A stretch of DNA of 64,000 nt from Prevotella conceptionensis 9403948 (GTDB lineage: Bacteria > Bacteroidota > Bacteroidia > Bacteroidales > Bacteroidaceae): the NCBI RefSeq assembly GCF_000312305.1, contig NZ_HE999447.1:150442-214441 (forward strand), given 5' to 3'. Below the pieces are notes generated by a model. That model searched no databases. It was not told the origin of the DNA and saw nothing but the letters and a program-made list of their open reading frames with translations. A program made the translations under genes and the position numbers. Shown here one piece after another: positions 6,611-24,428 of the stretch (position 1 is the first letter of the stretch; every line of letters starts with the position of its first letter).

Positions 6611-8614
6611 ATGAGCAACAAACAACCATACAACAATAAGCAACCCAAGATGCCACGTTTCAACATGAACTGGATTTACGGGTTGATCATCATCGCGTTG
6701 GGGCTTTTCTTCTTCACGGGGAAAGGCGACATGATGGCTGGAAGTGTTAAGCAAGAGGCCACATACACCAAATTTAAGGAATATGTGAACAAAGGCTACG
6801 TCAACAACGTGGTGGTAAACAGCGAGCAACGTACGCTTAAAATGTACGTTAAGCCTGCCAACCTGCGCGACGTTTTCGGAAAAGACCCGAAACAACTAGG
6901 CGAAAAACCATACGTAAGTGTACAATATGGTTCGGCCGAGGAACTTGAAAAGTACCTCACTGAAATTCAACAGGCAGGTAAAATCAAAGACTTTGCTTTC
7001 GATAACGATAAAGGCGGACACTTCACCGACATCCTTATCCAGTTCGTTCCATTCATCGCCCTCATTGCCATTTGGATTTTCATCATGCGTAGAATGGGCA
7101 GTGGCGGAGCCGGAGGGGGTTCGGGCGTGTTCAGCGTAGGCAAAAGCAAGGCCAAGATGTACGAGAAAGGAAACGAAATCGGCATCACCTTTAAAGACGT
7201 TGCCGGCCAAGAAGGAGCCAAGCAAGAGGTTCAAGAAATTGTTGAATTCCTTAAAAGTCCACAGAAATATACCGACCTCGGTGGTAAAATCCCCAAGGGC
7301 GCATTGCTCGTTGGTCCTCCGGGTACGGGTAAAACGCTTTTGGCCAAAGCCGTTGCAGGCGAAGCGGGCGTGCCTTTCTTCTCCATGAGCGGCTCCGACT
7401 TTGTCGAAATGTTCGTGGGTGTAGGTGCAAGTCGTGTTCGCGACCTTTTCCACCAAGCCAAAGAAAAATCACCCTGTATTATTTTCATCGATGAAATTGA
7501 TGCAGTGGGCCGTGCTAGGAGCAAAAATCCCTCGATGGGCGGAAACGATGAGCGCGAAAATACTCTCAACGCACTGCTTACCGAGATGGACGGATTTGGC
7601 ACAAACAGTGGTGTTATCATTCTTGCAGCCACCAACCGTGCCGACATGCTCGACAGCGCACTACTTAGAGCAGGGCGTTTCGACCGACAAATAAACGTAG
7701 ACCTGCCCGACCTGCCTGAGCGTAAGCAAATCTTTCAAGTACACCTTCGCCCCGTAAAGGTCGACTCCACCGTAGACCTCGATTTCCTCTCGCGGCAAAC
7801 TCCGGGCTTTTCAGGAGCCGACATCGCCAACGTCTGCAACGAAGCTGCTCTTATTGCAGCTCGCCATAATAGTAAATCGGTAGGCAAACAAGACTTTCTC
7901 GACGCCGTAGACCGTATTATCGGTGGATTGGAGAAGAAAACAAAGATAATGACTGCCGCCGAAAAGCGCACCATTGCCTTGCACGAGGCAGGCCACGCCA
8001 CTGTGTCTTGGTTCTGCCAACATGCCGACCCTTTGGTAAAGGTTTCTATCGTACCGCGTGGCCGAGCGTTGGGTGCAGCATGGTATCTACCCGAAGAACG
8101 CCAAATCACCACCAAAGAGCAAATGCTCGACGAAATGTGTGCACTGATGGGCGGACGTGCTGCCGAAGAATTGTTCACTGGCCATATCTCTACCGGTGCA
8201 ATGAACGACTTAGAGAGAGCCACAAAGAGTGCATACGGCATGGTGGCATACGCTGGTATGAGCGATAAGTTGCCCAACATTAGTTTCTACAACAACCAGG
8301 AATACCAATTCCAAAAGCCATATTCTGAAACAACGGCGAAAGTTATCGACGACGAAGTGATGAAGATGGTAAACGAGCAGTACGACCGTGCGAAGAAAAT
8401 ACTTCAAGAAAACAGCTACGGTCACAACAAGTTGGCCGACCTGCTCATCTCTCGCGAAGTTATTTTCGCCGAAGACGTAGAAGAGATTTTCGGTAAACGA
8501 CCTTGGGTTAGCCGCTCCGAAGAAATCATTGAAGACAATACACCGAAGTTGGAAGACATGCCCGACGAGGTGAAAGCGGCCGAGGAAGAACACCGCAGGT
8601 CGCGTGGACTTTAA
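6611..8614 (+). CDS. ftsH: ATP-dependent zinc metalloprotease FtsH
   Basis: FtsH is a hexameric membrane AAA+ protease that degrades misfolded and regulatory membrane and cytosolic proteins. This 667-residue copy has transmembrane helices near residues 14-34 and 137-158 around a periplasmic domain. A glycine-rich linker follows, then Walker A GPPGTGKT (235-242), Walker [12 protein letters not shown], the second region of homology with [21 protein letters not shown]-type arginine fingers, and the zinc site HEAGH (about 458-462). All key residues are present and length is normal. It lies between rsfS and cdsA on the same strand. Confidence 0.97.
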
Positions 8615-8799
8615 CCCATAACATGCTGTCGCCATCCGCCTATCTTACTTACAAGGCAGGCAGATGGCGATACGCTGTTACCACTTTCCACATTACGCCA
8701 ACACGCAAAAACACGTTCAACCGCCCACACAAAATGCCGAGGATGCCACAACGCACCTCCATCAGTTACCATTATATAACGACGAAAAAAGAGAAGACA

Positions 8800-9663
8800 A
8801 TGACTCCTAAAATTAAGAATTTGATTGCACGAACCATAACAGGTGTTCTTTTTGTAGCCATCATGGTTACTTGTTTCTTGCGCCCATTGAGCATGGTGTT
8901 TGTTTTTGCACTCATAACGTCGCTCAGCCTTTGGGAATACGCAGGGTTAGTTAACGAGAACAAGGGCACTAGCGTTAACCGATTCATATCAACCGTTGCC
9001 GGCACATACCTTTTCTTGGCCGTTGCAGGCGTCAACAGCGGGTTCATTGCCACCAATGCCGTGTTCGTTCCTTATCTCCTAACCATCGTTTATCTTTTCG
9101 TCAGCGAACTTTACACCAAAGCTAACGACCCCATCAACAATTGGGCATACACCATGTTGGGGCAGATGTACATCGCCCTACCCCTCTCAATGATAAACGT
9201 GTTGGCGTTCAGGCAAGCCGACAACCAAATTTACTTTTACCATCTCCTTCCCCTTAGTGTGTTTATCTTCCTTTGGACCAACGACACTGGTGCCTATTGT
9301 TCTGGTTCGCTCTTCGGCAAACACAAGCTTTTCCCACGCATTTCGCCTGCCAAGAGTTGGGAAGGCAGCATCGGCGGAGGCATTCTCGTGCTCCTAGTAG
9401 CCGGTCTTATCGGCTATTTGGAAACACAATCCACAGCTCCCACAAACCTCACCATCCCCCAATGGTTAGGCTTAGGACTTGTAGTGGTGGTGTTCGGCAC
9501 GTGGGGCGACCTTGTTGAGTCGCTCTTCAAACGCACACTCGGCATCAAAGACAGCGGCAACATCCTGCCTGGCCATGGTGGAATGCTCGACCGTTTCGAT
9601 TCCTCATTCATAGCCATACCCGCCTCTGTGGTATATCTCTATTCATTAACACTATTTCAATAA
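8800..9663 (+). CDS. cdsA: Phosphatidate cytidylyltransferase
   Basis: CdsA makes CDP-diacylglycerol from phosphatidate and CTP, the branch point for bacterial phospholipids, in the inner membrane. This 287-residue protein is almost entirely transmembrane. Near the C-terminus it carries the family signature SLFKRTLGIKDSGNILPGHG followed by GMLDRFDS. The frame is open upstream to 8623 but those residues are hydrophilic and family-unlike; the ATG at 8800 begins just before the first membrane helix and follows an AGAAGA stretch. It sits 185 bases after ftsH and 47 bases before mtaB. Confidence 0.93.
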   Translation: MTPKIKNLIARTITGVLFVAIMVTCFLRPLSMVFVFALITSLSLWEYAGLVNENKGTSVNRFISTVAGTYLFLAVAGVNSGFIATNAVFVPYLLTIVYLFVSELYTKANDPINNWAYTMLGQMYIALPLSMINVLAFRQADNQIYFYHLLPLSVFIFLWTNDTGAYCSGSLFGKHKLFPRISPAKSWEGSIGGGILVLLVAGLIGYLETQSTAPTNLTIPQWLGLGLVVVVFGTWGDLVESLFKRTLGIKDSGNILPGHGGMLDRFDSSFIAIPASVVYLYSLTLFQ

Positions 9664-9710
9664 CATCGTAGAGAACGTCTCAGCATTGTGCGTTCTCTCA
9701 CATACATAAT

Positions 9711-11051
9711 ATGATAGACAGTTCAGCTTTTCAGGGTAAAACGGCTGCTTACTACACATTAGGTTGCAAATTAAACTTTTCGGAAACCTCCACTTTTGGG
9801 CAAATGCTCCAAGACATGGGCGTTACAACCGCCAACGAAGGCGAGCCTGCCGACATTTGCCTCATCAATACCTGCTCGGTTACCGAAGTGGCCGACCACA
9901 AATGTAGGCAGATTATCCACCGCATGGTGCGCGAAAACCCAGGAGCCTTTGTGGTTGTAACGGGATGTTACGCCCAACTTGAATCCGAAAAGGTTAGTGC
10001 CATCGAAGGTGTAGACCTCGTTTTAGGCAGCAACGAAAAGGCCAACCTCATACAATATCTTAACGATGCTTGGGCCGACGGGCAACACGGAAAGGCTTTA
10101 CACCGTCATTTCTCGGTGAACACCAAAGACATCAAGACCTTTGCCCCCAGTTGCAGCCGTGGCAACCGAACGCGTTATTTCCTTAAAGTGCAAGACGGGT
10201 GCGACTATTTCTGCACCTATTGCACCATTCCCTTCGCACGAGGTTTTTCCCGAAACCCCTCCATAGCATCGCTTGTTCAGCAAGCACGCGATGCCGCCAA
10301 CGACGGTGGAAAGGAAATTGTGCTAACAGGCGTAAACATTGGCGAGTTCAAGGGCGGAGGAAACGAACGCTTTATCGACCTTGTCAAGGCTCTCGACCAA
10401 GTTGAAGGCATACAGCGTTTCCGCATCAGCAGCATTGAACCCAACTTGCTTACCGACGAGCTTATCGACTATTGCGCATCCAGCAGAGCCTTCATGCCCC
10501 ACTTCCACATACCCTTACAAAGTGGCAGCGACGAGGTTTTAAAACTGATGCAACGCCGATACGACACTGCCCTTTTTGCCCACAAGGTACAACTCATCAA
10601 GCAACGAATACCCAATGCCTTTATAGGTGTAGACGTCATGGTAGGCTCTCGTGGCGAAGAACCAGCCTATTTCGAAGAATGCTACGACTTCCTAAAATCG
10701 TTAGACATCAGCCAGTTGCATGTTTTCCCTTACAGCGAACGTCCAGGAACGGCTGCCCTTCGCATTCCCTACGTAGTTAACGATGCCGAGAAACGCCGCC
10801 GCAGCAAACTGCTTTTAGAACTCTCCGACGAGAAATTGGAAACCTTTTATGCCTCGCAGATTGGCTCACAAAGCCTAGTTCTCTTTGAGAAGGCGGCCAA
10901 AGGCAAGGCTATGCACGGCTTTACCCCCAATTATGTGCGCGTTGAATTGCCAGCCTCGCTAGCCAAAGACGAATTTGACAACCAACTGTTACCCGTTAGG
11001 TTAACCCAATTCAACCATAACAAGAGTGCCATAAAGGTAGAACTTATATAA
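9711..11051 (+). CDS. mtaB: tRNA t6A37 methylthiotransferase MtaB
   Basis: MtaB converts t6A37 to ms2t6A37 in ANN-decoding tRNAs using radical SAM chemistry and two Fe-S clusters. This 446-residue protein has the N-terminal methylthiotransferase domain (YTLGCKLNFSET, NTCSVT, TGCYAQ give three cluster cysteines). The radical-SAM motif C-x3-C-x2-C follows in DGCDYFCTYCTIPFARG (Cys 164, 168, 171). Next come IPLQSGSDEVLKLMQRRY and a C-terminal TRAM-like segment ending in VRLTQFNHNKSAIKVELI. CKLN and the overall length favour MtaB over MiaB. It is followed 23 bases later by a GT2 reading frame. Confidence 0.9.
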   Translation: MIDSSAFQGKTAAYYTLGCKLNFSETSTFGQMLQDMGVTTANEGEPADICLINTCSVTEVADHKCRQIIHRMVRENPGAFVVVTGCYAQLESEKVSAIEGVDLVLGSNEKANLIQYLNDAWADGQHGKALHRHFSVNTKDIKTFAPSCSRGNRTRYFLKVQDGCDYFCTYCTIPFARGFSRNPSIASLVQQARDAANDGGKEIVLTGVNIGEFKGGGNERFIDLVKALDQVEGIQRFRISSIEPNLLTDELIDYCASSRAFMPHFHIPLQSGSDEVLKLMQRRYDTALFAHKVQLIKQRIPNAFIGVDVMVGSRGEEPAYFEECYDFLKSLDISQLHVFPYSERPGTAALRIPYVVNDAEKRRRSKLLLELSDEKLETFYASQIGSQSLVLFEKAAKGKAMHGFTPNYVRVELPASLAKDEFDNQLLPVRLTQFNHNKSAIKVELI

Positions 11052-11074
11052 CATCTTCAACATAAAATTGAGTC

Positions 11075-12101
11075 ATGCACAAGGTAGCAATCGTTATTCT
11101 GAACTGGAATGGGCAGTCAATGCTTGCCCAATATCTGCCTTCCGTTATGCGCCATTCGCGTAACGATGCAGCGGTTTATGTTGCCGACAACGCCTCTACC
11201 GACAACTCATTAGCCTATCTCGCCCAACATTTTCCCCATTGTCAAACCATCGCCTTGGAAAAGAATTGGGGATTTGCCGAAGGCTACAACAAAGCTTTGG
11301 CACAAATAGATGCCGAATACTACGTGTTGCTCAATTCTGATGTTGAAGTTACCCACCAATGGCTTACGCCGCTCATCGAAGAGATGGACGCCCACCCCGA
11401 CATAGCAGCCTGCCAACCCAAACTTTTGGCCATGCACGACAGGGAATCGTTTGAATATGCCGGTGCGTCGGGCGGTTTCATCGACAGCTTGGGCTATCCC
11501 TATTGCCGCGGTAGAATATTCGAACACGTTAGAAAAAGACGAAGGACAATACGACTATCGCCAAGAAATACATTGGGCCACAGGAGCCTGTCTCATGGTG
11601 CGAGCCAAAGACTATTGGGCCGTAGGCGGCCTTGACGCGCGTTTCTTTGCCCACAACGAAGAGATTGACCTCTGCTGGCGACTAAGACTCAGAGGAAAAA
11701 GGATATTCTGCATACCCGAAAGCACGGTTTACCACGTAGGTGGCGGCACGCTCCCCAAGGTAAACCCAATGAAAACCTACCTCAACTTTCGCAACAATCT
11801 AACCATGCTTTACAAGAACCTTGCCCCTTCACAGATGCGCAAGGTTATGGTTTGGCGACTATTCTTAGACTATGTTGCGGCCTTCCAGACTCTCGTTTTC
11901 AACAGAAACTGGGGTGACTTCAAGGCCATTATCAAGGCGCGCCGCGACTTCAACAAATGGAAACACAGCTTTGACACCGCCAGAAAAGAAATACAAAGCA
12001 CCAAAACTATACACACCGAAAACCCCAATAGCCCTTTCTCCATCCTGTGGAAGTATTATGTAATGGGCAAGCACACTTTCCATGCACTACCACAAAAGTA
12101 A
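11075..12101 (+). pseudogene. Glycosyltransferase family 2 gene with a +1 frameshift
   Basis: Two overlapping frames together make one complete GT2 of the rhamnosyltransferase/WbbL type, about 342 residues. The first frame (from 11075) holds MHKVAIVILNWNGQ, VADNASTDNS, NWGFAEGYNKAL and NSDVEV. The second (to 12101) holds WATGACLMVRAKDYWAVGGL, FFAHNEEIDLCWRLRLRG and a C-terminal acceptor region. Homology switches frame around 11522-11530, where one extra C in GAACACG breaks IFE-TLEKDEG. Without that base the join is smooth. Either the gene is a recent pseudogene, the base is a sequencing error, or the frame is slippery. Both halves are otherwise well preserved. Confidence 0.8.
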
Positions 12102-12560
12102 GCAAAGGTCTTCCCCCGCAACAGCTGCAAGGGCGTGGAAAACACCCCATACTTGCTATTATCCCCCTGTTCCACAACACCTTTCCCACAACATTTGCAA
12201 TAGTATGGCCAGCAACCCATACTTGCCTTTGCATTCCATTCTCCCCTACCCTCCCACAACCAATCCTGGTCAGCAATCAGCCAAATCAAGTACACACAAT
12301 TCTACATTAGGCCGGCACTTGGTTAAACCGCTTGCAGCCTTTACTCTGTTCGGTAACTCCTTTCGCCAACTGCCGCACAACAAAAACTTTCTGCTGTGGG
12401 TAAATCCAAACCTGCTGTTTCTTCCATCTGATAACGACTTGCGGATACCCACTTCACCTCATTGAAGACACATGAAAACCAGACGAAGGCCACATCCTAA
12501 ACCTCACAAAGATAAGGACGATTTTGTTATTCTAGCATCAAACTTGTCATGGGTGGCTTA
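12102..12560. other. Gene-free stretch between the GT2 gene and repeat copy B
   Basis: This C-rich, T-poor stretch carries two imperfect copies of CCCATACTTGC (near 12146 and 12218). Short frames on both strands here have no recognisable domain and no nearby promoter box. I see no RNA gene. Confidence 0.5.
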
Positions 12561-12648
12561 ATGTTTCTATAACTTAAGAAGAGTTAGTTGTCTTTGTGAT
12601 GTCAACACAAAAATAAACACTACTCTCGTATACGAAATGCAGAACTAA
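12561..12648 (+). mobile_element. Transposase-derived left inverted end of copy B
   Basis: The sequence runs from TAATGTTTCTATAA through TGTCTTTGTGATG (a -7-like box) to CTCTCGTATACGAAATGCAG. It aligns with the region upstream of and across the start codon of the transposase remnant at 56.1-56.2 kb, and is inverted with respect to 13870-13974. No reading frame survives. Confidence 0.6.
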
Positions 12649-13717
12649 TCAACCCCTCTGACCTATATACTCACGAAAGCCTAACTACTCTCGAATACTT
12701 CAACTCAGCAACTCACAAACTCATCAACTTGCAAACCTATCAACTCAAAGAAACATCAATTCAAGAAATCATCAACTCATCTGCTAATAAATTCATCAAC
12801 TCAAAAACTCAGCAACTCAACAACTTAAAAACGCTGAAAATCGGCAACTTAAAAACTCAGAAACTCAAAAACCCAGAAACTTATTACCTTAAAACTCAAA
12901 AATCATAAGCAGCTCATCTTAAAAGCTCCAAAACACACAAGCTTATCAACTCACCAACACAAAGTTTAAAATATTTCTTTTATTTTACAACATCGCTCTA
13001 TTTTTCATTCCATTCTAGCGCAAAATTAGGCTATAAAGTAGGCAAATATCCACTTTTTGTAACCTTCCACACCTCTTATTTTGTCTATCTGTGAGAACAA
13101 AACCTGCATTTTGCACCATTTAGCCTTTCTAATTTGGATGCCAGCTCGTAATTTTCCAAGCCCAATTACCCACTTTTTAACCACTAAACCCCACTTTTTA
13201 GCAACCATTTTGCCCTTTTTAGCCATGTTTTTGATGGGTTTAAAAGGTTTTGTTTATACCATTGCCGTGTATATTTATGCTTTTCGTCTCGCATTTAGCA
13301 CCATTTTACCTTGCGTTTAGCAGCAAAACACCTTGCATTTTGCACCAAAACGCACTGCATTTTGCATCAAAACGCACTGCATTTAGCGGCATATTGCACT
13401 GTGTTTAGCACCAAAATGCAACGTATTTAGCAGCAAATGGCAAAACAAATGGTACAAATGACGGTTATTGTAAATAAAAATTCATTTTGTTGCATTCACA
13501 GGCTAACTCCTATTTACATCGAAACAAACCCTCGCGAGAATCGATTTTTTGCGGCGAGGTTGGAGATTGGTTGGCAAAAAGGGCACTAATAATGTTAAAA
13601 TTCTTACCGAAAATTATACAAAAAAGATATATCGCATACAGCACGCAGAGGAAAATGGCACGGAAAACACATACGCGTGCTGCCGCCAACGCGTGCGGTT
13701 GCAGGGATACTGCTCTT

Positions 13718-13974
13718 GGCCAACGGAGGCTGCATCGAGGAAAAGCAGAAGTTATTTGCCATTGACTACCAGTTTTCCAACTTGTAGAGAAATGTATGGA
13801 ATGACTTCTGCAAGGTCACATTTTGAGTCCCAACCACGTTTTGTCACAAACAAATGAGGCAGAATTTCAGATTTTATCGTATCTTTGCCCAGTAATACAT
13901 GAGCGGGGCGTTTATCTTGGCTTAACTGCACAAAGACAATGAACTCCTCTCAATTTATAGAAACATTAAAAGTC
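13718..13974 (-). mobile_element. Transposase-derived right inverted end of copy B
   Basis: On the minus strand, reading inward from 13974, the segment begins GACTTTTAATGTTTCTATAA. It passes a TGTCTTTG box and then a decayed coding stretch with LGKDTIKSEILPHLFVTKRG. A part shared with copies C and E follows, ending near GGCCAACGGAGGC on the plus strand. Frameshifts and stops show it is not functional. Confidence 0.65.
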
Positions 13975-14147
13975 AGGGCGTCTCCAATATGGAGACCAGC
14001 CCCACGCCGCTAATAGTAAAATCTCTTTCAAGAATCATTCGCCGAACATTTTTGTTAAGACACAACCTTGTATTGGTGAGCCTATAATGAACCAGGGAAT
14101 AAGAGCATTAAATTAACAATCATACGGATAGCTAAATTGTATTAATT

Positions 14148-15440
14148 ATGAACAGAAACATTCTTTTAGTTGGCCTGCTTTTTGCATTTGTGCCAACAAG
14201 TATCTTTGCTCAAAAGCAGCGTTCGCAAGCATTCAGAGATAAGTACACTCTTAAAGAGGCTGTTATCCTTAGTAGGCACAACATACGTGCACCACTTTCT
14301 ACAAAGGGAAGTTTGTTGGAACAAGTTACTACGCATCCTTGGTTCAAATGGACAGCAGGAGCCAGCGAACTAACAACTCGTGGGGGCGCATTGGAAAATC
14401 AGTTCGGCCTCTATTTCCGCAAATGGTCAGTAGATGCTGGTCTTTTCAAAGAGAACGCCACACCATCCCGCAACGAGGTAATCGTTTACGCCAACAGTAT
14501 GCAGCGTTGTATTGCAACAGCCAATTATTTTACAACGGCACTCTTCCCTGTGGCCGACGTTCCTGTAAACCATCGTTTCGTACCAAGCAAGATGGACCCC
14601 ATCTTCTTCCCACAACTTACCAAGTCGAGCAAGTCGTTCAGGGCACAAGCCATGAAAGAGATTGCCGCCATGGGTGGAAAGAAAGGTATCTTAGGTATTA
14701 ATGAAGGTTTGAAGGAAAGCTACGAAATTACAGCCAAGGTTCTCGACTTGAAGGATTCGCCTGCATGCAAGGAAAAGAATTTGTGCGCTTTCGACAACTA
14801 CAACACTCAGCTTATTCTCGACAAAGGTGATGAACCACGCATGAAAGGTTCTTTGAAAGATGCCACTACCTGCTCGGATGCGCTTATCCTGCAATTCTAT
14901 GAAGAACCAGATGCCAAGAAAGCTGCCTTCGGACACGACATTACCCTCGACGATTGGACAAAGATTTCTAAGATTAAAGACGTTTACGGCGACGTGCTCT
15001 TCACAGCACCCGTAGTCGCTGTCAATGTGGCCCATCCACTTCTCGTCTACATGCGCGACGAACTAATGGATAAAGACCGCAAGCTGGCTTTCCTCTGTGG
15101 TCACGACTCTAACATTGCATCAGTAACTGCCGCTTTGGAAGTTGAACCATACGACCTACCCAATTCGATTGAGAAGAAAACGCCCATTGGCTGCAAGCTT
15201 GTTGTCGAAAAGTTTGAAGGAAAAGACGGAAAAATGTATTGCGACATCAACCTTACCTACCAGTCGACCGAACAGTTACGGCACATTGCGATGCTTAGTC
15301 TCGACAATCCCCCACAGATTTTCTCGCTTTCATTGAAAGGATTGCAGAAAAATGCAGACGGACTGTATCTGCTTAAAGATGTAGAGGGAAGATTTATGAA
15401 GGCCATTCGTGCCTACGACAAGATTGAGGACGAGCTTTAA
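14148..15440 (+). CDS. Secreted histidine-type (acid) phosphatase
   Basis: This 430-residue periplasmic or exported phosphomonoesterase belongs to the histidine acid phosphatase (branch 2) family. It has a signal peptide (residues 1-21, ending IFA). The nucleophile motif is RHNIRAP (43-49), where RHGxRxP is usual, and the proton-donor motif is CGHDSN (His about 319). The Asn in place of Gly in RHG is unusual but leaves the catalytic His and Arg residues in place. It is followed 23 bases later by a porin of the phosphate-selective type, suggesting that the pair releases and takes up phosphate or a phosphorylated sugar or inositol. Substrate is not determinable. Confidence 0.85.
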   Translation: MNRNILLVGLLFAFVPTSIFAQKQRSQAFRDKYTLKEAVILSRHNIRAPLSTKGSLLEQVTTHPWFKWTAGASELTTRGGALENQFGLYFRKWSVDAGLFKENATPSRNEVIVYANSMQRCIATANYFTTALFPVADVPVNHRFVPSKMDPIFFPQLTKSSKSFRAQAMKEIAAMGGKKGILGINEGLKESYEITAKVLDLKDSPACKEKNLCAFDNYNTQLILDKGDEPRMKGSLKDATTCSDALILQFYEEPDAKKAAFGHDITLDDWTKISKIKDVYGDVLFTAPVVAVNVAHPLLVYMRDELMDKDRKLAFLCGHDSNIASVTAALEVEPYDLPNSIEKKTPIGCKLVVEKFEGKDGKMYCDINLTYQSTEQLRHIAMLSLDNPPQIFSLSLKGLQKNADGLYLLKDVEGRFMKAIRAYDKIEDEL

Positions 15441-15463
15441 AAGGCTCCTTAGATTTAAGAAAC

Positions 15464-16633
15464 ATGAACAAGAAACTATTGCTTGCATTTGCTGCCAGCC
15501 TTTACATGGGGGCCGCAAGTGCACAAGAAAAGCTAGAAATTAAGGTTACGGGGCGCGCCCTCTTTGATGCAGCAACTTACACCCAAAACGCCCAAGCAAA
15601 GAGCGAAGACGGCAAGATGAACGAGGGTGTTGGCATTAGGGACATGCGCGTTGGCTTAAAAGCCACCTACGGCAAGTGGTATTTCCGTGGAGATGTTTCA
15701 TACTCCAACAATAAAGTGTCCTTGAAAGATGTGTACTTACAATACAGTTTCAACGAGAACAACTTCTTGCGTGCCGGTCACTACACCGCACCATTCGGAC
15801 TTTCGTCGGCTTATAGCTCGGCCAAGAAAGAGTATATGGACGAGCCTGAAGGCAACATCTACCAGCCGGGACGTCGCATTGGTGTGATGCACACCATTGC
15901 CAACCACAACCTGTGGCTACAATATGGTGCATTTGCCGACAACTCGGCCCTAACAACCAGCACAGATAAGTCTGGTCCGCAGGGCTACACGGTTTCTGGA
16001 AGGTTTGTCTATCGCCCCATCATGACCGATGCAGGCGGTTTCCATGTTGGTTTCAGTGGCATGCACGTTAAGGCAGAGGCCGTAAAGGAAGGCGAACATG
16101 CCCACATAAAATACGACAAGAAGTACCTAACAGCAGTAGACAAGCGTACTGCCACGGCTATTGACATTACTGATGCACGCTGGGAAAACAAGTTCACAGC
16201 CGAGTTTCAAGGCATTTGGCACAACTACCAACTTAGCAGCCAATACTATTGGTCGCATATCAACCGCGACGAAAACAAAAGCTACAATACAGATGGTTTC
16301 TACGTTTCAGCACGTGGCATCATCATCAACCCGGCAGACTACAAGTATAACTATGCGTGCTCTGGAGTTGACAATCCTGCCGACAAGAACCTTGAATTGA
16401 TGTTAGGCTTTGGGTATCTGAACTTGAAGGATGCAAAAGCATTGGCCGATGCTCCAATAGCTGGCATGGCCAAGGCTGGTCGCATGTCCGACCTTAGTGC
16501 TGGTCTTTCTTTCTTCTGGAACAAATATGTCACCTTGCGCCTGAACTATCACTACATACATTCGCACACATGGAATCAACCCACTGCTAAGGTTGTGAAT
16601 GTAGTACAGATGCGTGTTCAGTATATGTTCTAA
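15464..16633 (+). CDS. Phosphate-selective-porin-type outer membrane protein
   Basis: This 389-residue protein has a signal peptide (about 1-20, ending ASA). Its beta-strand pattern matches the OprP/OprO-like porin family in Bacteroidota: GIRDMRVGLKATYGKWYFRG, LKDVYLQYSF, FLRAGHYTAPFGL, and C-terminal strands ending in VQMRVQYMF with a terminal Phe typical of barrel assembly. It probably forms an outer-membrane channel. It is directly downstream of the histidine phosphatase and ends before a strong terminator hairpin, so the two genes form a small operon. Confidence 0.82.
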   Translation: MNKKLLLAFAASLYMGAASAQEKLEIKVTGRALFDAATYTQNAQAKSEDGKMNEGVGIRDMRVGLKATYGKWYFRGDVSYSNNKVSLKDVYLQYSFNENNFLRAGHYTAPFGLSSAYSSAKKEYMDEPEGNIYQPGRRIGVMHTIANHNLWLQYGAFADNSALTTSTDKSGPQGYTVSGRFVYRPIMTDAGGFHVGFSGMHVKAEAVKEGEHAHIKYDKKYLTAVDKRTATAIDITDARWENKFTAEFQGIWHNYQLSSQYYWSHINRDENKSYNTDGFYVSARGIIINPADYKYNYACSGVDNPADKNLELMLGFGYLNLKDAKALADAPIAGMAKAGRMSDLSAGLSFFWNKYVTLRLNYHYIHSHTWNQPTAKVVNVVQMRVQYMF

Positions 16634-16692
16634 TTACATAGTTTTAAGATCAGAAACATACAAAGTACGGTTCTCGTACAACTAAGCTAGAT

Positions 16693-16734
16693 TACGCCAG
16701 CTACCGCATAATGGCAGCTGGCGTATCGTTTTTT
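16693..16734 (+). terminator. Rho-independent terminator after the porin gene
   Basis: TACGCCAGCT (16693-16702) pairs with AGCTGGCGTA (16716-16725), followed by CG and a run of six T. It ends the phosphatase-porin operon. Confidence 0.85.
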
Positions 16735-16810
16735 CATCAGCAGGCCTATACAAATACAAAGGTTTAAATTCCATCGACAAACAATACATCGCGCATAGAA
16801 AACGACAAAA

Positions 16811-16850
16811 TAATAAGAGAGGTTACACAGCTTGTGTACCTCTCTTATTA
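16811..16850 (-). terminator. Terminator downstream of the minus-strand ORF
   Basis: TAATAAGAGAGGT (16811-16823) pairs with ACCTCTCTTATTA (16838-16850). On the minus strand it is followed by a T-rich stretch. It probably ends the ORF at 16872-17414 and could act in both directions. Confidence 0.7.
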
Positions 16851-16871
16851 TTATCCGCTCTACTTACAGAA

Positions 16872-17414
16872 TTAATCCATATAGAATTGAACAGGGATAT
16901 TGGCCGTCAAAGGCGAATGAGATTTCTTAACGGGAGCGTTTGTACAAACCTGCGGAATAATGCCATTGGTAGGCAAGAAACCGTTTGGCAGATCCTTACG
17001 GTAAAGTACATCTTTGCGATAATGAGCCTCCGCTCCTTCGGCAATGCTCATACCAAGCATTCCACTTCGCCAGTCCCCATCGTTGTCCACCTCGTTCATC
17101 ACATCCACAAGTTCAGCACAATCAGATGGGATAGCAACTTTTCCCGCTTGCATATCTTGCAACTGTTTAATCACGCGTTGCATCCACGCTTCGTTGCATT
17201 GATGCGCTTTGTCTACGGCAACGATGGTAATCGCATGGTAAGCCTCCTCTCCTTTGTGGCCAGGTTTGTACAGTTCTGATTGTGCCGCTACAACTCCACG
17301 ATACACAATTGGCCCCTCACAATACTTTCTTCTCCACTTGTCTTTGCCAAACCAAGGTGCCTTTCCGGCAACAGCCTTGAAAAATTCGCTATCGACACTG
17401 CGGGGTGTCTTCAT
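16872..17414 (-). CDS. Hypothetical protein, possibly 5'-truncated
   Basis: I do not recognise this 180-residue reading frame. It is hydrophilic, has no signal peptide or membrane segment, and contains GPIVYRGVVAAQSELYKPGH and NEVDNDGDWRSGMLGMSIAE; it ends with HSPLTANIPVQFYMD. The frame stays open for 28 further codons upstream of the ATG, to a TAA at 17499-17501. Those codons (with NGHENCTNLSKLEPYMKTPR across the ATG) look as protein-like as the rest but contain no start, so the gene may have lost its 5' end or use a rare start. A perfect 20-bp palindrome lies just upstream. A terminator follows the stop. Confidence 0.55.
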   Translation of the reverse strand: MKTPRSVDSEFFKAVAGKAPWFGKDKWRRKYCEGPIVYRGVVAAQSELYKPGHKGEEAYHAITIVAVDKAHQCNEAWMQRVIKQLQDMQAGKVAIPSDCAELVDVMNEVDNDGDWRSGMLGMSIAEGAEAHYRKDVLYRKDLPNGFLPTNGIIPQVCTNAPVKKSHSPLTANIPVQFYMD

Positions 17415-17517
17415 ATAAGGTTCAAGCTTGGAGAGATTGGTACAATTCTCATGGCCATTTCGTATTTCCTCCTGCGTAGTACTCCTTGGATGCTTAAATT
17501 ACCAAAACATCACCCAC

Positions 17518-17564
17518 TTACAACGAACGCCCGATTGCTATTAACAATCGGGCGTTCGTTGTAA
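17518..17564 (-). terminator. Perfect 20-bp inverted repeat after the acyl-CoA synthetase genes
   Basis: TTACAACGAACGCCCGATTG (17518-17537) and its exact reverse complement (17545-17564) flank a seven-base loop. It lies 18 bases after the stop of the minus-strand synthetase gene. There is no T-run on either side, so it may act as a strong hairpin terminator, as an mRNA 3'-end stabiliser, or as a protein-binding palindrome. Confidence 0.6.
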
Positions 17565-17582
17565 GTACAGCGTTCTTTCGCC

Positions 17583-19247
17583 TTATCTTTGATACTTAAA
17601 GCGTTTGATACTCTTCTTAGGCGTTTTCTCAAATTCTTCTGCATGGATTTCAATACTTGACAACTTACTATACGCAGGCAATATAGCGTTTAGTTGTTGA
17701 CGGTTCTGTTCCATCAGGTTCACAAGGTCGTCGTTGTTCAATCCCAGGTTCTTAGCCTCATCAAAGTCGGGGAACACTAGGCCAACAAGCTTGTCGCCGT
17801 CTTGTACCACCACACTTTCAGTAACCATCGTCATCGAATTGAGCTTGTCTTCTATCTCCTCCGGATAAATGTTTTGTCCATTCGACCCAAGGAGCATATT
17901 CTTAGAACGACCTTTGATAAACACATTGCATTCGGCATCCATCAATCCGAGGTCGCCCGTGTGGTACCAACCATCCTTATCAAGCGTTTCGCGTGTTGCC
18001 TCCTCATTCTTATAGTAACCCAACATCACGTTCAAGCCACGCGCCAAAATTTCGCCAGGTACGTTTTGTGGGTCGTGACTATCTATTTTCACCTCCATGT
18101 GAACCACAGCTTTGCCGCACGACGTGGGGACAAAGTCCTTATAATCTGCATAAGTGATGATGGGTGCACATTCTGTTGCGCCATAACCAACAGTAAAGGG
18201 CAAGTCGATGCGTGTGAGGAAAGTCTCAACTTCGCGGTTGAACGCCGCTCCGCCAATGATAATCTCATAGAATTCACCACCAAAAGCCGCCGCTACTTGT
18301 TCTTTAATCTTTTGGTTTATCTTCTTGTTTATCACAGGCATATTAAGCAACAAGCGCATCTTGTTGTTCTGTATCTTTGGGAAAACACGTTTCCTAATAA
18401 TCTTTTCGATAACCAATGGCACGGCAATAATCACCTTGGGCTTAATCTCGGCGAACGCTTGAGCGATGATGGCAGGACTAGGCATGCGATTAAGATAATA
18501 GATGTGGCATCCACAACAGAACTCGAAAATAAACTCGAATGCCATGCCATACATGTGGGCCATAGGCAGAATGCTGATAATGTGGGCACCCGGCGACACA
18601 TGCGGACCTAGCACGCCCATGGCGAAGTCTAAGTTACTCCACAGTGCGCGGTAGGGAATCATCACACCTTTCGAAAAACCTGTGGTGCCGCTTGTGTAGT
18701 TGATAAGCGCCAGTTCGTCGGGGTTCTCCTCTATATAATAGTTCACATGCTCTTTACGGAAGTATTTTGGGTACTTCTTTCCGAACATTTCATTAAGATG
18801 TTCGCGTGCGTAAGTAAGCTTATCGGTACGCGAAAGCACCAACGAATAGTCGGGAATGTAGATGATACCCTCAAGTGCGGGCATCTTGGTAGCGTCTATC
18901 GTAGTGGCCACCACATCGCCCACAAAGAGCAACTTGGCCTCCGAATGGTTCACGATGTTGTGCATTTGGTCGGCGGTAAACTCGTGTAGCACGGGTACGG
19001 CCACCGCTCCATAGGTGAGCGTTGCCAAAAAGGCCACTGCCCAGTTAGTGCTATTGCGCCCTGCAAGGGCAATCTTGTCGCCCTTTACTACCCCGCTGTT
19101 TTCGAAGAGAATGTGCAATTTCTCTATTTTGCGCGCCACATCATGGTATTGTAGCGTTTGCCCTTTGAAGTCGGTCAGCGCATCAAGGTCCCAATGGTCT
19201 ATGATGCTCTTCTGAACACAGGCATTAAAGCTAGGTATCTTTTCCAT
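17583..19247 (-). CDS. AMP-dependent acyl-CoA synthetase, copy 1
   Basis: This 554-residue adenylate-forming enzyme resembles long-chain fatty acid-CoA ligases, which activate a carboxylic acid with ATP and transfer it to CoA. Visible motifs are the P-loop-like YTSGTTGFSKGVM, VGYGATECAPIITYADY, the hinge region GWYHTGDLGLMDAECNVFIKG-type stretch, and the catalytic Lys in KTPKKSIKRFKYQR near the C-terminus. It is downstream of a same-length paralog on the same strand, separated by 81 bases, and presumably arose by tandem duplication. The substrate is unknown. Confidence 0.88.
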   Translation of the reverse strand: MEKIPSFNACVQKSIIDHWDLDALTDFKGQTLQYHDVARKIEKLHILFENSGVVKGDKIALAGRNSTNWAVAFLATLTYGAVAVPVLHEFTADQMHNIVNHSEAKLLFVGDVVATTIDATKMPALEGIIYIPDYSLVLSRTDKLTYAREHLNEMFGKKYPKYFRKEHVNYYIEENPDELALINYTSGTTGFSKGVMIPYRALWSNLDFAMGVLGPHVSPGAHIISILPMAHMYGMAFEFIFEFCCGCHIYYLNRMPSPAIIAQAFAEIKPKVIIAVPLVIEKIIRKRVFPKIQNNKMRLLLNMPVINKKINQKIKEQVAAAFGGEFYEIIIGGAAFNREVETFLTRIDLPFTVGYGATECAPIITYADYKDFVPTSCGKAVVHMEVKIDSHDPQNVPGEILARGLNVMLGYYKNEEATRETLDKDGWYHTGDLGLMDAECNVFIKGRSKNMLLGSNGQNIYPEEIEDKLNSMTMVTESVVVQDGDKLVGLVFPDFDEAKNLGLNNDDLVNLMEQNRQQLNAILPAYSKLSSIEIHAEEFEKTPKKSIKRFKYQR

Positions 19248-19328
19248 ATCTTGTTTGCTTTTAAACGTTATACTTGGTTTTGGTGCTAACCTTTAACCGC
19301 TATTCTCTGTTTATCGTTCTTTATTATA

Positions 19329-20993
19329 TCACACGTTTTGGTAAAGGTAGCGTTTTATGCTACGCTTGGGGGTTTTCTCAAACTCTGTGTCGTGCAACTT
19401 AATGGCCGACAGCTTGCAGTAAGTGGGCAAGATGGTGTTCAACTCGTGTCGGTTCTGTTCCATGATGGCCTCCAACTCTTCGGGCGAGAGGTCGAGCGAT
19501 GCAACTTCTTCCATTTCGGGGTACACCAACCCCACTAGTTTATCGCCCTTTTGTACCACAAGACTCTCGTTAACCAAGGTCATCGAGTTGAGTTTATCCT
19601 CAATTTCCTCCGGAAATACGTTCTGTCCATTCGATGCCAGCAGCATATTCTTAATCCGCCCGCGTATATAGATGTGTCCATCGGGGCTCATCGTAGCCAA
19701 GTCGCCCGTGTGATACCATCCGTCTTTATCTAATACTTGCCTCGTTGCCTCCTCGTTTTTATAGTAACCCTGCATCACATTGATGCCGCGCGCCACGATT
19801 TCGCCTGGAACATTTAGCGGGTCGTTGCTCGCAATCTTTACCTCAACGTGTCGAACAGGCATGCCACACGAACCTGCAGCAAACAGACTTTGGTCGGTAA
19901 AGGTTAATACGGGTGCGGTTTCGGTGGTGCCATACACCACCGTGATGGGGAAACCAATATCTGAAAGAAAGTCTTCTATCTCCTTATTAAGACTTGCTCC
20001 GCCCACAATCACTTCGTAAACGTTTCCTCCGAAGAGATCGCGAACCATTTGGCAAAGGCTGCTTTTCACCTTTTTACCTATCACAGGCATGCTGGTGAGC
20101 AACTTAATGCGGTTGTTTTGTACCTGTGGAAATATCTTCTTGCGTATAATTTTGTCTACCATAAGCGGCACTGCCGAAACGATAGCGGGCTTTACTTCGG
20201 CCATAGCTTCAACAATGAGCGAGGGCGAAGGTTGGCGTGTAAGGAAGTGGTTGTGCGCTCCAACGCAGATAGCCAATAAAAACTCGAACATCTGCCCGTA
20301 CATATGAGCCATAGGCAATATGCTCAATATATTACTTCCTGCTGGTACGTGCGGTGCCAACTCGTGCATCACAAAGTCGAGATTACCCCACAACGCCCTA
20401 TATGGCAGCATTACACCCTTGGAAAAACCCGTTGTTCCACTGGTGTAATTGATGATGGCCAGCTCTCCGGCTTGGTCACAATGGTAAGCCACATGCTCCT
20501 TACGGAAGAACTTGGGATATTTTTTACCGAATAACTCGTTAAGGTGTTCGCGCGCAAACGACAGCTTTTCCGACTTGCACTCGCGCAACGAGAAATCGGG
20601 AAGGTAAACAATGGCCTCGACAACTGGCATCGGCTCCATCGTTAGATTTGGTGCAACAACATCGCCCACAAAGAGCAACTTCGACTCCGAGTGGTTAACA
20701 ATGTTATAAATCTGTTCGGGCGTAAACTCGCTTTGCACAGGAACAACAACCGCACCGTAAGTGATAATGGCCAAATAAGCCACTGCCCAGTGCGCACTAT
20801 TTCGTCCGCAAAGTGCAATCTTGTCACCTTTCACGATGCCGCCACTTTCGAACAGTATGTGTAACTTCTCTATTTTACGTGCCACATCGTGGTATTGTAG
20901 CGTTTTCCCTTTATAGTCGGTAAGGGCATTAAGGTTCCAATGGTCCTTGATGCTCTTCTCGATATAAGCATTAAAGCTAGGTATTTGTTTCAT
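19329..20993 (-). CDS. AMP-dependent acyl-CoA synthetase, copy 2
   Basis: This is the upstream partner of the pair, also exactly 554 residues, and begins MKQIPSFNAYIEKSIKDHW against MEKIPSFNACVQKSIIDHW in copy 1. Adenylation motifs are intact: YTSGTTGFSKGVM, VVYGTTETAPVLTF, GWYHTGDLATM, and the C-terminal KTPKRSIKRYLY. The paralogs differ most in the middle, around the region that shapes the acyl pocket (LAICVGAHNHFLTRQ against FEFCCGCHIYYLNRM), so they may take different acids. A promoter with good -33 and -7 boxes precedes it, and copy 1 is probably on the same transcript. Confidence 0.88.
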   Translation of the reverse strand: MKQIPSFNAYIEKSIKDHWNLNALTDYKGKTLQYHDVARKIEKLHILFESGGIVKGDKIALCGRNSAHWAVAYLAIITYGAVVVPVQSEFTPEQIYNIVNHSESKLLFVGDVVAPNLTMEPMPVVEAIVYLPDFSLRECKSEKLSFAREHLNELFGKKYPKFFRKEHVAYHCDQAGELAIINYTSGTTGFSKGVMLPYRALWGNLDFVMHELAPHVPAGSNILSILPMAHMYGQMFEFLLAICVGAHNHFLTRQPSPSLIVEAMAEVKPAIVSAVPLMVDKIIRKKIFPQVQNNRIKLLTSMPVIGKKVKSSLCQMVRDLFGGNVYEVIVGGASLNKEIEDFLSDIGFPITVVYGTTETAPVLTFTDQSLFAAGSCGMPVRHVEVKIASNDPLNVPGEIVARGINVMQGYYKNEEATRQVLDKDGWYHTGDLATMSPDGHIYIRGRIKNMLLASNGQNVFPEEIEDKLNSMTLVNESLVVQKGDKLVGLVYPEMEEVASLDLSPEELEAIMEQNRHELNTILPTYCKLSAIKLHDTEFEKTPKRSIKRYLYQNV

Positions 20994-21016
20994 TGCACAT
21001 ATTTCTTAATCTTGTG

Positions 21017-21048
21017 CAAAGATACAACGTTGTTTGCACATTCCCAAA
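21017..21048 (-). promoter_or_regulatory. Promoter of the acyl-CoA synthetase pair
   Basis: Read on the minus strand, TTTG (21048-21045) and TATCTTTG (21024-21017) are separated by 20 bases, matching the Bacteroidota -33/-7 arrangement. The leader before the ATG at 20993 would be short, under about 20 bases. Confidence 0.75.
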
Positions 21049-21165
21049 ACTTCTGTGCAATTTGTGGTTTAATATAGTAAAATCCTCTGCCGCAACTCGT
21101 TGTTTCTGTGTGTTACACTCTTATACGAACGACAGTGCAAGCATCATTTTAGTGTTATGCCAAGC

Positions 21166-21672
21166 CTATATCCTTTCGCTTAACAATTCAATAAGTTCGT
21201 CGCGCCTTTCACAACTGAACACATGTATGCGGTTAGGCGTATGCACCACCACCATTTGGTCGCCGTTTTTTACGTATGCCCGATACCTACCCAAGTTGCG
21301 ATTATAAAACAAGCCATAATGGCCAAAGAAGAACGAGATACCCCAAAGGCGCAAGTCCAGCCCTATTTCGTCTTTGGTTTCTACCTTGGTGATGGTGTTT
21401 AGCGGTATTCGCACCTTACCTATTTGGCGATGAATAACAAGTGTGGAATCGTTTAACGTTACTTTGCGTATCTGTATACAAAAGGCATAGAGCACCACAA
21501 AGACACAAGCGGCGAAGATAAGTAGATAGGTAAAGAAACGGGCCGAACCGAAATCGCTACGAACCATTCCGCCCATGCAAGCCATAAAGGCACCGTGCAT
21601 AAGCACCATACCTATAATGGTGGTTACAAGTATGAACTTTGAGTAGGGCGAACGAAATGTGGATGTATTCAT
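21166..21672 (-). CDS. Bacterial PH-domain membrane protein
   Basis: This 168-residue protein has two membrane helices (about residues 15-33 and 43-65). A cytosolic bacterial PH-like domain follows, with TLVIHRQIGKVRIPLNTITK and the usual KNGDQMVVVHTPNRIHVFSC strand pattern. The frame extends upstream to 21729, which would overlap the ABC-F gene; the ATG at 21672 (MNTSTFRSPYSKF) is preferred because it comes just before the first helix. Function is unknown. It lies 46 bases after the ABC-F gene on the same strand. Confidence 0.72.
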   Translation of the reverse strand: MNTSTFRSPYSKFILVTTIIGMVLMHGAFMACMGGMVRSDFGSARFFTYLLIFAACVFVVLYAFCIQIRKVTLNDSTLVIHRQIGKVRIPLNTITKVETKDEIGLDLRLWGISFFFGHYGLFYNRNLGRYRAYVKNGDQMVVVHTPNRIHVFSCERRDELIELLSERI

Positions 21673-21718
21673 TTTTATGATGCGTTTTGTTTTATTTGGG
21701 ATGTGTTGGACAACCGGT

Positions 21719-23494
21719 TTAAATCTCACTCAGCTCTAACCAGCGCATGCTCTTCTCGTCCAATTCATCTTTCAGCATGGGCAAGCGTTTGCTTTTCTCC
21801 GTTATTTCGGCCACCGATAATGTGCCACTAGAAAGTTGCGCCTCTATTTCGGCTTGTTCGGTTTCAAGCGCAGCAATGTCTTTTTCCAACTGCTCAAACT
21901 CCGTTTTCTCCTTATAAGTTAGTTTGCGCTTGGTTTCGTTGCGATAGGCAGGTTTCTCTTTCTTCTCAACAGGCACTACCTTACTTTCTGCTTGGGATGA
22001 CAATTGGCTCCACTGGCGATACTGGGTATAGTTGCCAGGGAAGTCTTGTACCTCTCCCCCACCCTTAAACACCAAGAGATGGTCTACCACCTTATCCATG
22101 AAATAGCGGTCGTGGCTCACAATGATAACGCAGCCTGGGAAGTCTTGCAGATATTCTTCAAGCACTTGCAGCGTCTTAATGTCCAAGTCGTTGGTAGGTT
22201 CGTCTAGTACAAGGAAGTTGGGATTGCGCATCAGCACCGTGCAAAGGTACAATTTTCGTTTCTCGCCACCACTCAACTTATATACATAGTTATACTGTTC
22301 TTCGGGCGAAAACATAAAATGCTGCAAGAATTGAGATGCCGAAAGATGTCGGCCACTGCCCAAATCAATATATTCGGCAATGTCGGTAACAACGTCTATC
22401 ACCTTTTTTTGTTCGTCAAACTTCAATCCTTCTTGCGAGAAATAGCCAAAACGAACGGTTTCGCCGATGTCGAAACGTCCGCCATCGGGTTGCACCTCGC
22501 CAAGCAACATCTTAATGAACGTAGACTTTCCCGTACCGTTATTGCCCACGATACCCATCTTCTCGAAACGCGCGAAGTTGTAGTAAAAGTCGTGAAGGAT
22601 AACTTTTTCGGGCGACCACGCTTTGGAAACATACTGGCATTCGAATATTTTAGAGCCAATATAAACATTGCTGCTTTTAAGGCGCACTTGCCTTTCTTCA
22701 ATGCGTTGCTTGGCCTTGGCCTCCAATTCGTAAAACGCATCTTCGCGATACTTTGCCTTATGCCCGCGCGCCTGTGGCTGTCGGCGCATCCAGTCCAGTT
22801 CGCGCCGATACAAGTTGTTGGCATGTTGCACCTCGGCACGCGCGTTGTCTAGTCGTGCTTGCCGCTTTTCCAAGTAATAGGCATAGTTTCCCTGATAGGT
22901 GTAGATGGTGTTATTGTCCAGTTCTACAATCAAGTTGCACACGCGGTCCAGAAAATATCGGTCGTGTGTAACCATGAGCAAGGTTTTGTTTCCTCGCGAA
23001 AGAAACCCTTCCAACCACTCAATCATCTCCAAATCAAGGTGGTTGGTGGGTTCGTCTAGTATCAGGAAGTCGGGTTCGGTAATAAGCGTGTTTGCCAAAG
23101 CCACGCGCTTTTGCTGTCCGCCACTAAGCTCTCCCATGGGCTGGTTCAAGTCGGCAATTTTCAGTTGCGTAAGTACCTGCTTGGCTTTAAGCACTTTTTC
23201 TTCGTCGCCATGATGGTTGAAACAGGCATCAAGCACGGTTTCTTTAGGGTCGAACGTGGGCGATTGCACCAAGCATGCCACGCGTAAGCCATTGCGATAG
23301 ATAACCTCGCCGCCGTCTTTACCCTCTTCGCCCATCAGTATCGACAACAAAGTAGACTTCCCTGTCCCATTTTGGGCAATTAGTCCTACGCGTTGTCCCT
23401 CGGCAATTGAGAACGAAATGTTTTCAAACAGCACCTTCGCACCAAATCTCTTGGTGAGGTTCTGCACGTCTAGCACAGGTTTGGGGTTTGCCAT
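21719..23494 (-). CDS. ABC-F family ATPase, Uup-like
   Basis: This soluble protein of 591 residues carries two ABC cassettes and no membrane domain. ABC-F proteins bind the ribosomal E site or act in ribosome assembly or DNA-junction maintenance. Cassette 1 has NGTGKST and LSGGQQKRVALA with DEPTNHLD; cassette 2 has NNGTGKST, LSGGEKRKLYLC and DEPTNDLD. The linker RRELDWMRRQPQARGHKAKY and a C-terminal coiled coil (about 520-591) are features of the Uup subgroup rather than of antibiotic-resistance ABC-Fs. It overlaps nothing and starts six bases after the stop of the GTPase gene yihA. Confidence 0.9.
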   Translation of the reverse strand: MANPKPVLDVQNLTKRFGAKVLFENISFSIAEGQRVGLIAQNGTGKSTLLSILMGEEGKDGGEVIYRNGLRVACLVQSPTFDPKETVLDACFNHHGDEEKVLKAKQVLTQLKIADLNQPMGELSGGQQKRVALANTLITEPDFLILDEPTNHLDLEMIEWLEGFLSRGNKTLLMVTHDRYFLDRVCNLIVELDNNTIYTYQGNYAYYLEKRQARLDNARAEVQHANNLYRRELDWMRRQPQARGHKAKYREDAFYELEAKAKQRIEERQVRLKSSNVYIGSKIFECQYVSKAWSPEKVILHDFYYNFARFEKMGIVGNNGTGKSTFIKMLLGEVQPDGGRFDIGETVRFGYFSQEGLKFDEQKKVIDVVTDIAEYIDLGSGRHLSASQFLQHFMFSPEEQYNYVYKLSGGEKRKLYLCTVLMRNPNFLVLDEPTNDLDIKTLQVLEEYLQDFPGCVIIVSHDRYFMDKVVDHLLVFKGGGEVQDFPGNYTQYRQWSQLSSQAESKVVPVEKKEKPAYRNETKRKLTYKEKTEFEQLEKDIAALETEQAEIEAQLSSGTLSVAEITEKSKRLPMLKDELDEKSMRWLELSEI

Positions 23495-23499
23495 AAGCT

Positions 23500-24105
23500 T
23501 TATTGGGCCTCTATATTCTTGTTTATTTCGTCGATGTAGTTAAGCAGTTCTTCGCGTCCGATGCGCTTTTCCGAGCTGGTTATGAAGTAAGGTGGCAGTT
23601 CTTCCCACGAGTCTTCCAACTGTTTCATCCACTTCTCGGCATTCTGTTTGGCCTTTACCAGGCCCAGCTTGTCGGCCTTAGTAAACACAATTGTAAAGGG
23701 AACGCCACTTTCACCAAGCCAATCAATGAACTCGCGATCTATCTTTTGCTGCTCGTGCCTGATGTCGATTAACACAAAGAGGTTTACCAACTGTTCGCGT
23801 TGAAGGATGTAGCTAGAAATCATTTGTTGCAGTTTCTGCTGCACGGTTTTAGACCTCTTGGCAAATCCATAGCCAGGAAGGTCCACCAAATACCACGAAT
23901 CGTTGATGATAAAATGGTTTATAAGTAGCGTTTTGCCAGGTGTGGCCGATGTTTTGGCCAAGCCCTTGTGGTTGCAAAGCATGTTTATGAGGCTCGACTT
24001 GCCCACGTTTGAGCGGCCGATAAAGGCATATTCTATCTTGTTGTCTGTGGGACAAAGCCCTATCGAGGGGGCTGAAAGGGTGAAAGCCGACTTCTTGATG
24101 TCCAT
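23500..24105 (-). CDS. yihA: Ribosome biogenesis GTP-binding protein YihA/EngB
   Basis: This TRAFAC GTPase of 201 residues is needed for late assembly of the large ribosomal subunit. Motifs are G1 [10 protein letters not shown]2 TSATPGKT, G3 DLPGYGFA, G4 TKADK, and the family sequence [21 protein letters not shown] longer frame reaches 24195, but the extra 30 residues do not fit the family, and the ATG at 24105 ([14 protein letters not shown]) gives a normal length. It is the first gene of a minus-strand unit with the ABC-F ATPase. Confidence 0.94.
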
Positions 24106-24420: not shown

Positions 24421-24428
24421 TAACTTTG
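24421..24428 (+). promoter_or_regulatory. -7 promoter box TAACTTTG
   Basis: TAACTTTG lies 20 bases before the ATG at 24449, with an ATTG sequence (24398-24401) at -33 distance. Its position inside the longer frame starting at 24416 argues for the ATG at 24449. Confidence 0.6.

Follow-up and report, generated by a model that had tools for sequence, protein, structure and literature searches.

A probable decayed IS5-family transposon of Prevotella conceptionensis with a satellite and a 656-bp non-coding core between two inverted IS ends

The window, that is, the whole stretch of 64,000 nucleotides of Prevotella conceptionensis 9403948 that was analysed, carries copies A to E of a dispersed repeat. 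Copy B occupies positions 12540-13985, between an ORF ending at 12101, which was named glycosyltransferase-like by eye, and an ORF starting at 14148. Its left end (12540-12648, plus strand), aligned to the left-end consensus of the family, consists of a degenerate terminal inverted repeat (TIR) and some 106 bp with homology to an insertion sequence (IS) at its 5′ end. It is followed on the plus strand by a satellite (12649-12965) of 8-bp units of the CAACTCAT/AACTCAAA type, as judged by eye, by a non-coding core (12966-13620), and by a variable, G+C-richer spacer (13621-13752), in which comparison of copies revealed no common reading frame. The right end (13753-13985, minus strand) was identified by alignment to the right-end consensus as the TIR, the 5′ leader and a decayed transposase N-terminus of the same IS, in inverted orientation. 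The core is 655 bp long here, 656 bp being the commonest length, and extends from TTAAA..TTTTACA to AATGTTAAA..TATACA, with the same bounds as in copies without detected IS ends. Within it, an array of 22-bp units of the GCATTTAGCACCAAAACGCACT type (13291-13441, plus strand) was delimited from the sequence, the consensus and 22-bp indels between copies, and the most conserved block, TCGCGAGAATCGATTTTTTGCGGC (13532-13555, plus strand), from the motif count in the genome and from column conservation. The 14-mer TAATGTTTCTATAA, by which the initial annotation had recognised two inverted ends, was present at both places and read inward at each. The decayed transposase N-terminus that it had placed on the right side, LGKDTIKSEILPHLFVTKRG, was also recovered (peptide read by eye from the DNA). 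The inverted ends were thus confirmed, and the exact bounds of 12561 and 13974 had to be moved outward: because the ends of the family start with GAAGTCGTCTTGAC, the true left end lies 21 bases further out (12540, degenerate) and the right end 11 bases further out (13985).

Copy A (165-1297, plus strand) comprises the core at 165-819 and a right IS end that reaches 1297; its left end was not found in the window. Copy C (34593-35538, plus strand) starts with the left IS end at 34593, its core extends to about 35538, and a further IS remnant lies on the right. Copy E (56107-57155, minus strand) has the core at 56474-57155 and an IS end at 56107. The matching fragments previously reported at copies A, C and E are IS-end remnants. 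Copy D (44334-45013, plus strand) consists of the core, with an extrapolated start, and no IS remnant was detected to its left or right. The 8-bp CAACTCA-type satellite lies to the left of the core, and in some copies something like its reverse complement lies to the right (829-880 in the window; L248, L250 and L254), so that in these copies the satellites face each other across the core.

A search of the genome with the DUF4096 profile gave four places, three of which have the 5′ end described above (L071, L074 and L080). The full 276-aa transposase frame was found in two IS copies, and the frame of L080 was broken near the N-terminus. The intact IS is about 920 bp long (920 bp in L071). In L071, the TIRs match at 17 of 18 bases (GAAGTC..), with TTT on both sides; of the three copies with this 5′ end, L074 and L080 had no matching flanks. 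The transposase scored 113.2 bits with the NCBIfam IS5 model NF033580 (cut-off 110), 49.6 with PF13340 (cut-off 34.3) and 35.8 with PF01609 (cut-off 23). The nearest annotated proteins of the plasmid collection were mostly labelled as ISBf6 family and shared about 61% of their amino acids with the query along 99% of its length. Judged by these scores, the parent is a member of the IS5 family with a predicted IS5-type DDE transposase. This agrees with the IS5-type assignment in the initial annotation, and a complete IS with these ends, the presence of which had been proposed as a check, exists in the same genome. ISBf6, itself of the IS5 family, provides the closest annotated transposases; it is nevertheless a separate IS, and the likeness is at the protein level. 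A strong hairpin ending at the start codon was predicted in the IS leader (z = -5.7). Leader hairpins in other ISs guard against transcription from outside, and by analogy this one was taken as a putative guard of the same kind.

The ends of the family start 17 bases before the 14-mer, with GAAGTCGTCTTGACTTTTAATATTTCTATAAATTGAGAGGAG. In a weight matrix of 83 ends, conservation started abruptly at the first G of GAAGTC, and the bases outside were mainly A/T-biased. The 23-mer TTTTAATRTTTCTATAAATTGAG, with at most three mismatches, was found at 108 sites of the genome, compared to 0 for the reversed control. The left-end consensus (57 ends) was identical to the IS 5′ end at 89 of 106 positions and the right-end consensus (41 ends) at 207 of 234 positions. 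As both consensuses match the 5′ end at length and each matches the 3′ end over 18 bases only, the element reads as two outward-facing IS 5′ ends around a cargo. Two alternatives had been offered, namely spread by means of the ends of an IS5-type element and a fusion in which two inverted IS remnants enclose a repeat cargo, and for the family these matches speak for the fusion. The right end holds about 50 codons of the transposase. This N-terminal fragment is all that the interior contains of it: a functional transposase gene is absent, and no frame is kept in the spacer. In some copies, an end was closer to the intact IS, and L086 has an extra outer end of this type, with ATT on both outer sides. 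The two-ended units had a median length of 1325 bp (quartiles 1222 and 1430; 31 copies), and an IS remnant was present on one side only in 35 of 114 copies from this genome (17 left and 18 right).

Exact 3-bp duplications flanked 15 of the 31 two-ended copies, compared to 1.9 expected and a maximum of 8 in 1000 shuffles, and no excess was observed among the 31 for lengths of 1, 2 and 4-9 bp. The set consisted of 29 copies from this genome and 2 from the sister species. All 15 duplications were in this genome, and both sister-species copies were among the 16 without one. One end was weakly scored (7-13 bits) in four of the 31 copies, three of which had the 3-bp duplication. The target duplications expected earlier were thus found for the family; copy B itself has none, since ATC precedes 12540 and AAT follows 13985 (by eye).

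Empty sites were sought in Hoylesella shahii DSM 15611 and Hoylesella loescheii DSM 19665. Four 20-kb regions (L135, L136, L137 and L191) and positions 7000-26000 of the window were compared with both species, and all copies obtained from this genome with the sister stretches obtained. One clean empty site was found in H. loescheii, with 117 bp in place of 123 bp plus a 1221-bp element here (C3:309274-310494); base-exact restoration cannot be read there because the intergenic stretch has diverged. H. shahii has this element, on two contigs that both end inside it. At most of the loci compared, H. loescheii resembles this genome more than H. shahii does, and since the closer relative is without the insertion and H. 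shahii has it, gain, loss and exchange are indistinguishable at this site. At a less clean site (L027), 1.6 kb here corresponds to about 30 bp in H. loescheii; the alignment resumes 4 bases past the IS end, and the left end is decayed. The L136 locus was not cleanly empty, as the sister species have other sequence there (about 4.1 kb and about 170 bp), and the remaining loci compared were not clean or not comparable. Empty alleles, for which a search in sister strains had been suggested as a further check, are therefore available for the family at these two sites in H. loescheii, neither of which is copy B.

Of the two genes that flank copy B, each was located on a separate contig in H. shahii, and a search of H. 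loescheii did not reveal the right-hand one; the two were not adjacent in the sister-species stretches matched. For these reasons, and because it has no duplication, the insertion of copy B is inferred from the family. Recombination or decay at copy B is likely. Given how the two neighbouring genes are distributed in the sister species, a rearrangement may have ended at copy B or close to it (between 12101 and 14148).

Two further observations were made. A 1763-bp two-ended copy in L138 lies inside a satellite of the CTCAAAAACT type, with ACT on both sides, which makes a nested insertion probable; in L017, a locus that overlaps L138, this region contains a run of N. A short intergenic block (AAAAAAGACCGGGTGCATCACTGCAGCCGGCCCCC..), located at L136:2702-2790 and at the corresponding positions of L184 and L185, has hardly changed between the three species, although the intergenic DNA next to it diverges, and could be a terminator or a leader.

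The 24-base core motif TCGCGAGAATCGATTTTTTGCGGC, with at most three mismatches, occurs at 210 sites in this genome, 30 in H. shahii and 2 in H. loescheii, with 0 for the reversed control in each; copies with more than three mismatches escape this count, and positions were given for 100 of the 210. The copy number rests on the motif because the search of the own genome scored the best 40 of 335 candidates. Within the genus, the search covered 398 genomes, taken evenly from a larger group, and two candidates were scored per genome. The core was matched in 11 of them, over at least 600 bases in this genome, H. shahii and H. loescheii, and over 31-65 bases in the other 8 with the two candidates scored in each. 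A search with the whole element gave a match over 96 bases in one of these 8, G016, within the 22-bp array. As two candidates per genome were scored in a sample of genomes, longer matches may exist elsewhere in these genomes or in members of the genus outside the sample. Intergenic arrays of CAAAACG/TTTTG-type units, repeated about every 22 bp (by eye), occur in other genomes of the genus without the rest of the core, at about 1350-1750 of loci L098, L108 (G263), L034 and L036 (G016). The core had no match in the phage and plasmid collections, nor the exact core 24-mer in viral contigs, and a phage or plasmid origin of the core was rejected on this basis.

Altogether, 114 distinct copies from this genome were examined. 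They were drawn via the IS ends and via the motif, and a copy was kept if a single BLAST match covered 450 or more of the 680 bases of the core. Copies with long runs of N and duplicates were left out of a 53-copy consensus, 3 of 133 rows with N out of the larger alignment, and 1 of 133 out of the tree set. The orientation of neighbouring genes could be called for 70 of the 114 copies (43 tandem, 16 convergent and 11 divergent), and no rule of orientation to genes was seen among them.

The core was 654-657 bp long in 83 of 111 aligned copies (656 bp in 47), and about 20 others were off by about 22 or 44 bp. It contains about seven of the 22-bp units as well as the near-invariant block; in the 53 copies, selected independently of the block, each column of a 20-bp stretch of it was conserved at 90% or more. 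A similar satellite abuts the core in many copies. The variability of the core showed no 3-base periodicity, the frame that follows it breaks early in most copies, and the consensus peptide of this frame had no family match over the cut-off. A coding core was therefore rejected. RNA folding of 40 of the 111 rows predicted one 7-pair plus-strand hairpin inside the near-invariant block, which does not allow covariation to be judged, and a weaker minus-strand structure at 181-300 of the reversed consensus (-5.7 compared to -0.9 in column shuffles). A few further low-energy windows exceeded the shuffles by tiny margins. No Rfam family passed its gathering score in positions 12500-14050 of the window and in 8 loci, where weak sub-threshold miRNA matches were the only ones. 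With so little conserved fold and no family over the threshold, a structured RNA was also rejected.

The core has kept its length better than the IS relic has. With both measured in the same copies, the relic had 2.4, 4.3 or 5.7 times as many indels per kb as the core under three gap scorings. Net length had changed in 25 of 34 relics (234 bp) compared to 6 of 34 core pieces of 234 bp from the same copies under two scorings, and in 28 relics compared to 6 core pieces of 38 under the third. Relic and core were each aligned to their own consensus, and both were kept only if mostly alignable; 10 of the 44 copies with a located right end were dropped (6 under the third scoring), mostly with a relic aligned over fewer than 190 bases. 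The substitution levels were similar, at 13-14% in the core and 15-19% in the relic, so recency alone is insufficient to account for the indel contrast. Rates among core sites were uneven (gamma shape 0.83).

The share of copies without an IS remnant was taken from motif-fetched copies only, as the set of 114 was drawn partly through the IS ends. Among 56 distinct copies fetched in this way, 31 had no IS remnant and 25 had one. Absence was judged in a left flank of 786 bp or more and a right flank of 1370 bp or more; the known left arms measure up to 828 bp (median 263) and the right arms up to 907 bp (median 368). Copies without detected ends stop sharply at the common core boundaries, and in 33 such copies no clear target duplication was seen there. 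Terminal branches were longer in copies without any IS remnant than in copies with one (median 0.159 compared to 0.110, p = 6e-6). The core tree required 23 changes of IS-remnant state, compared to a mean of 30.9 in 500 shuffles, none of which was as low, and the two kinds were mixed on it. The mixing is no proof that the IS ends decayed, and it is compatible with independent movement of the core.

Copy B is very probably a decayed, non-autonomous IS5-family transposon, MITE-like and about 1.2-1.4 kb long, in which two inverted copies of one IS 5′ end (106 and 234 bp) enclose a satellite and the 656-bp non-coding core. In the mechanism that we propose, the transposase of the intact IS would act in trans on the ends of the element, as the shared ends suggest. 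The IS ends would then have decayed while the core was kept, which is the simplest reading of the copies without IS sequence, older by branch length. It is most improbable that the family arose from two unrelated IS insertions flanking an older repeat by chance, with no composite unit. The missing duplication at copy B and the one-sided remnants in 35 of 114 copies would fit such an origin; the similar lengths of the two-ended units, the identical 3-bp flanks of 15 of the 31, the 5′ ends facing outward in both consensuses and the absence of the whole unit at the empty site contradict it. Chance insertion is possible for single decayed copies, and the composite unit is supported for the family. 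A repeat that spreads on its own, bounded by TTAAA..TTTTACA and AATGTTAAA..TACA, and was secondarily captured by IS ends seems rather unlikely as an account of the core. Such independence would explain why 31 of the 56 motif-fetched copies have no remnant and why the boundaries are sharp and common to copies without detected ends. It would also suit the flanks of L227, L234, L216 and L243, dissimilar to those of any other copy compared, and the resemblance of the two core ends to each other as direct repeats (by eye). However, the core boundaries in the 33 copies have no clear target duplication, the copies without a remnant are the older ones by terminal branch length and are mixed among the others, and the search for empty sites gave no core-only case, as the single candidate, L245, carries a truncated IS end (by eye).

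For the core within the composite transposon, a bolder reading, which we regard as less likely than not, is that it is a host-retained, length-constrained non-coding module, present about 200 times per genome, spread by the IS5-type element and outliving its ends. Such a module would be a novel type of intergenic repeat in bacteria, architectural or regulatory in role, in which the 22-bp units are phased and the near-invariant 20 bp form a putative protein site. The alternative that the core is passive filler, whose length was kept through base composition, chance or the way the copies were collected and not through function, is conceivable but doubtful. It gains from the lack of a kept reading frame, of an Rfam match over the threshold and of much conserved RNA fold, and from the BLAST-span filter, which disfavours large core indels. 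The indel contrast is moreover alignment-dependent, being 7.7-fold if the spacer beyond the 234 bases of IS homology is let into the relic and 2.4- to 5.7-fold otherwise. Filler is, on the other hand, difficult to reconcile with the similar substitution levels of core and relic, with a net length change hardly sensitive to gap scoring, with the uneven site rates and with the conservation of the 20-bp block in copies selected independently of it.

Comparing the core with the IS relic inside one copy provides an internal control by which spread can be told from retention. Provided that every one of the 210 sites marks a copy of 0.66-1.3 kb, the repeat would make up about 3-7% of the genome. The two motif sites of H. 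loescheii, although its genes are mostly 85-90% identical, point to a lineage-specific difference. Should the host-retained module be real, the related arrays of 22-bp units in other members of the genus would point to a wider system, and should the core really be selected, its partner protein would be a direct experimental target.

In the literature on Prevotella and Hoylesella repeats, MITEs and IS5, no description of this repeat was found among the matches listed, as judged by titles and the openings of abstracts. Mobile insertion cassettes have IS ends around DNA other than a transposase gene. The element described here shares this layout with them; in contrast, its cargo is non-coding and both of its ends are the same 5′ end. 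Correia, ERIC and other high-copy intergenic repeats, which in certain species exceed 100 copies per genome and some of which contain known regulatory sites, are similar in their dispersed, intergenic, non-coding copies (PMC10969869). The family has the hallmarks of a MITE, namely TIRs in common with an autonomous element of the genome, a duplication of fixed length, no transposase gene and an empty allele. The size limits given for MITEs are 50-500 bp (PMC10969869) and 50-1000 bp (PMC4596501), and the unit of 1.2-1.4 kb with its 656-bp core is larger than the 50-500 bp of the review (PMC10969869). "MITE-like" is the safer word because the median of 1325 bp exceeds these limits. The BrickBuilt MITE of Porphyromonas gingivalis has 19 copies, three of which are without both leader and tail (PMC4596501). 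Like the present family, it is an intergenic Bacteroidales MITE with IS5-family TIRs and a short-period tandem repeat, of 23 nt, between leader and tail (PMC4596501). It differs in copy number (19 compared to 210 core motifs), in having no transposase remnant, compared to an inverted transposase N-terminus here, and in duplications of varying length, compared to 3 bp here (PMC4596501). Its 23-nt unit and GAGACCTT-type TIR also differ, by eye, from the 22-bp unit and GAAGTC TIR found here, and the 656-bp core is a feature of the present family, the systems being compared by description (PMC4596501). BrickBuilt is the nearest described element that we found (PMC4596501); the transposon part of the present family is a variation on a known sort, and the core is the part that deserves follow-up.
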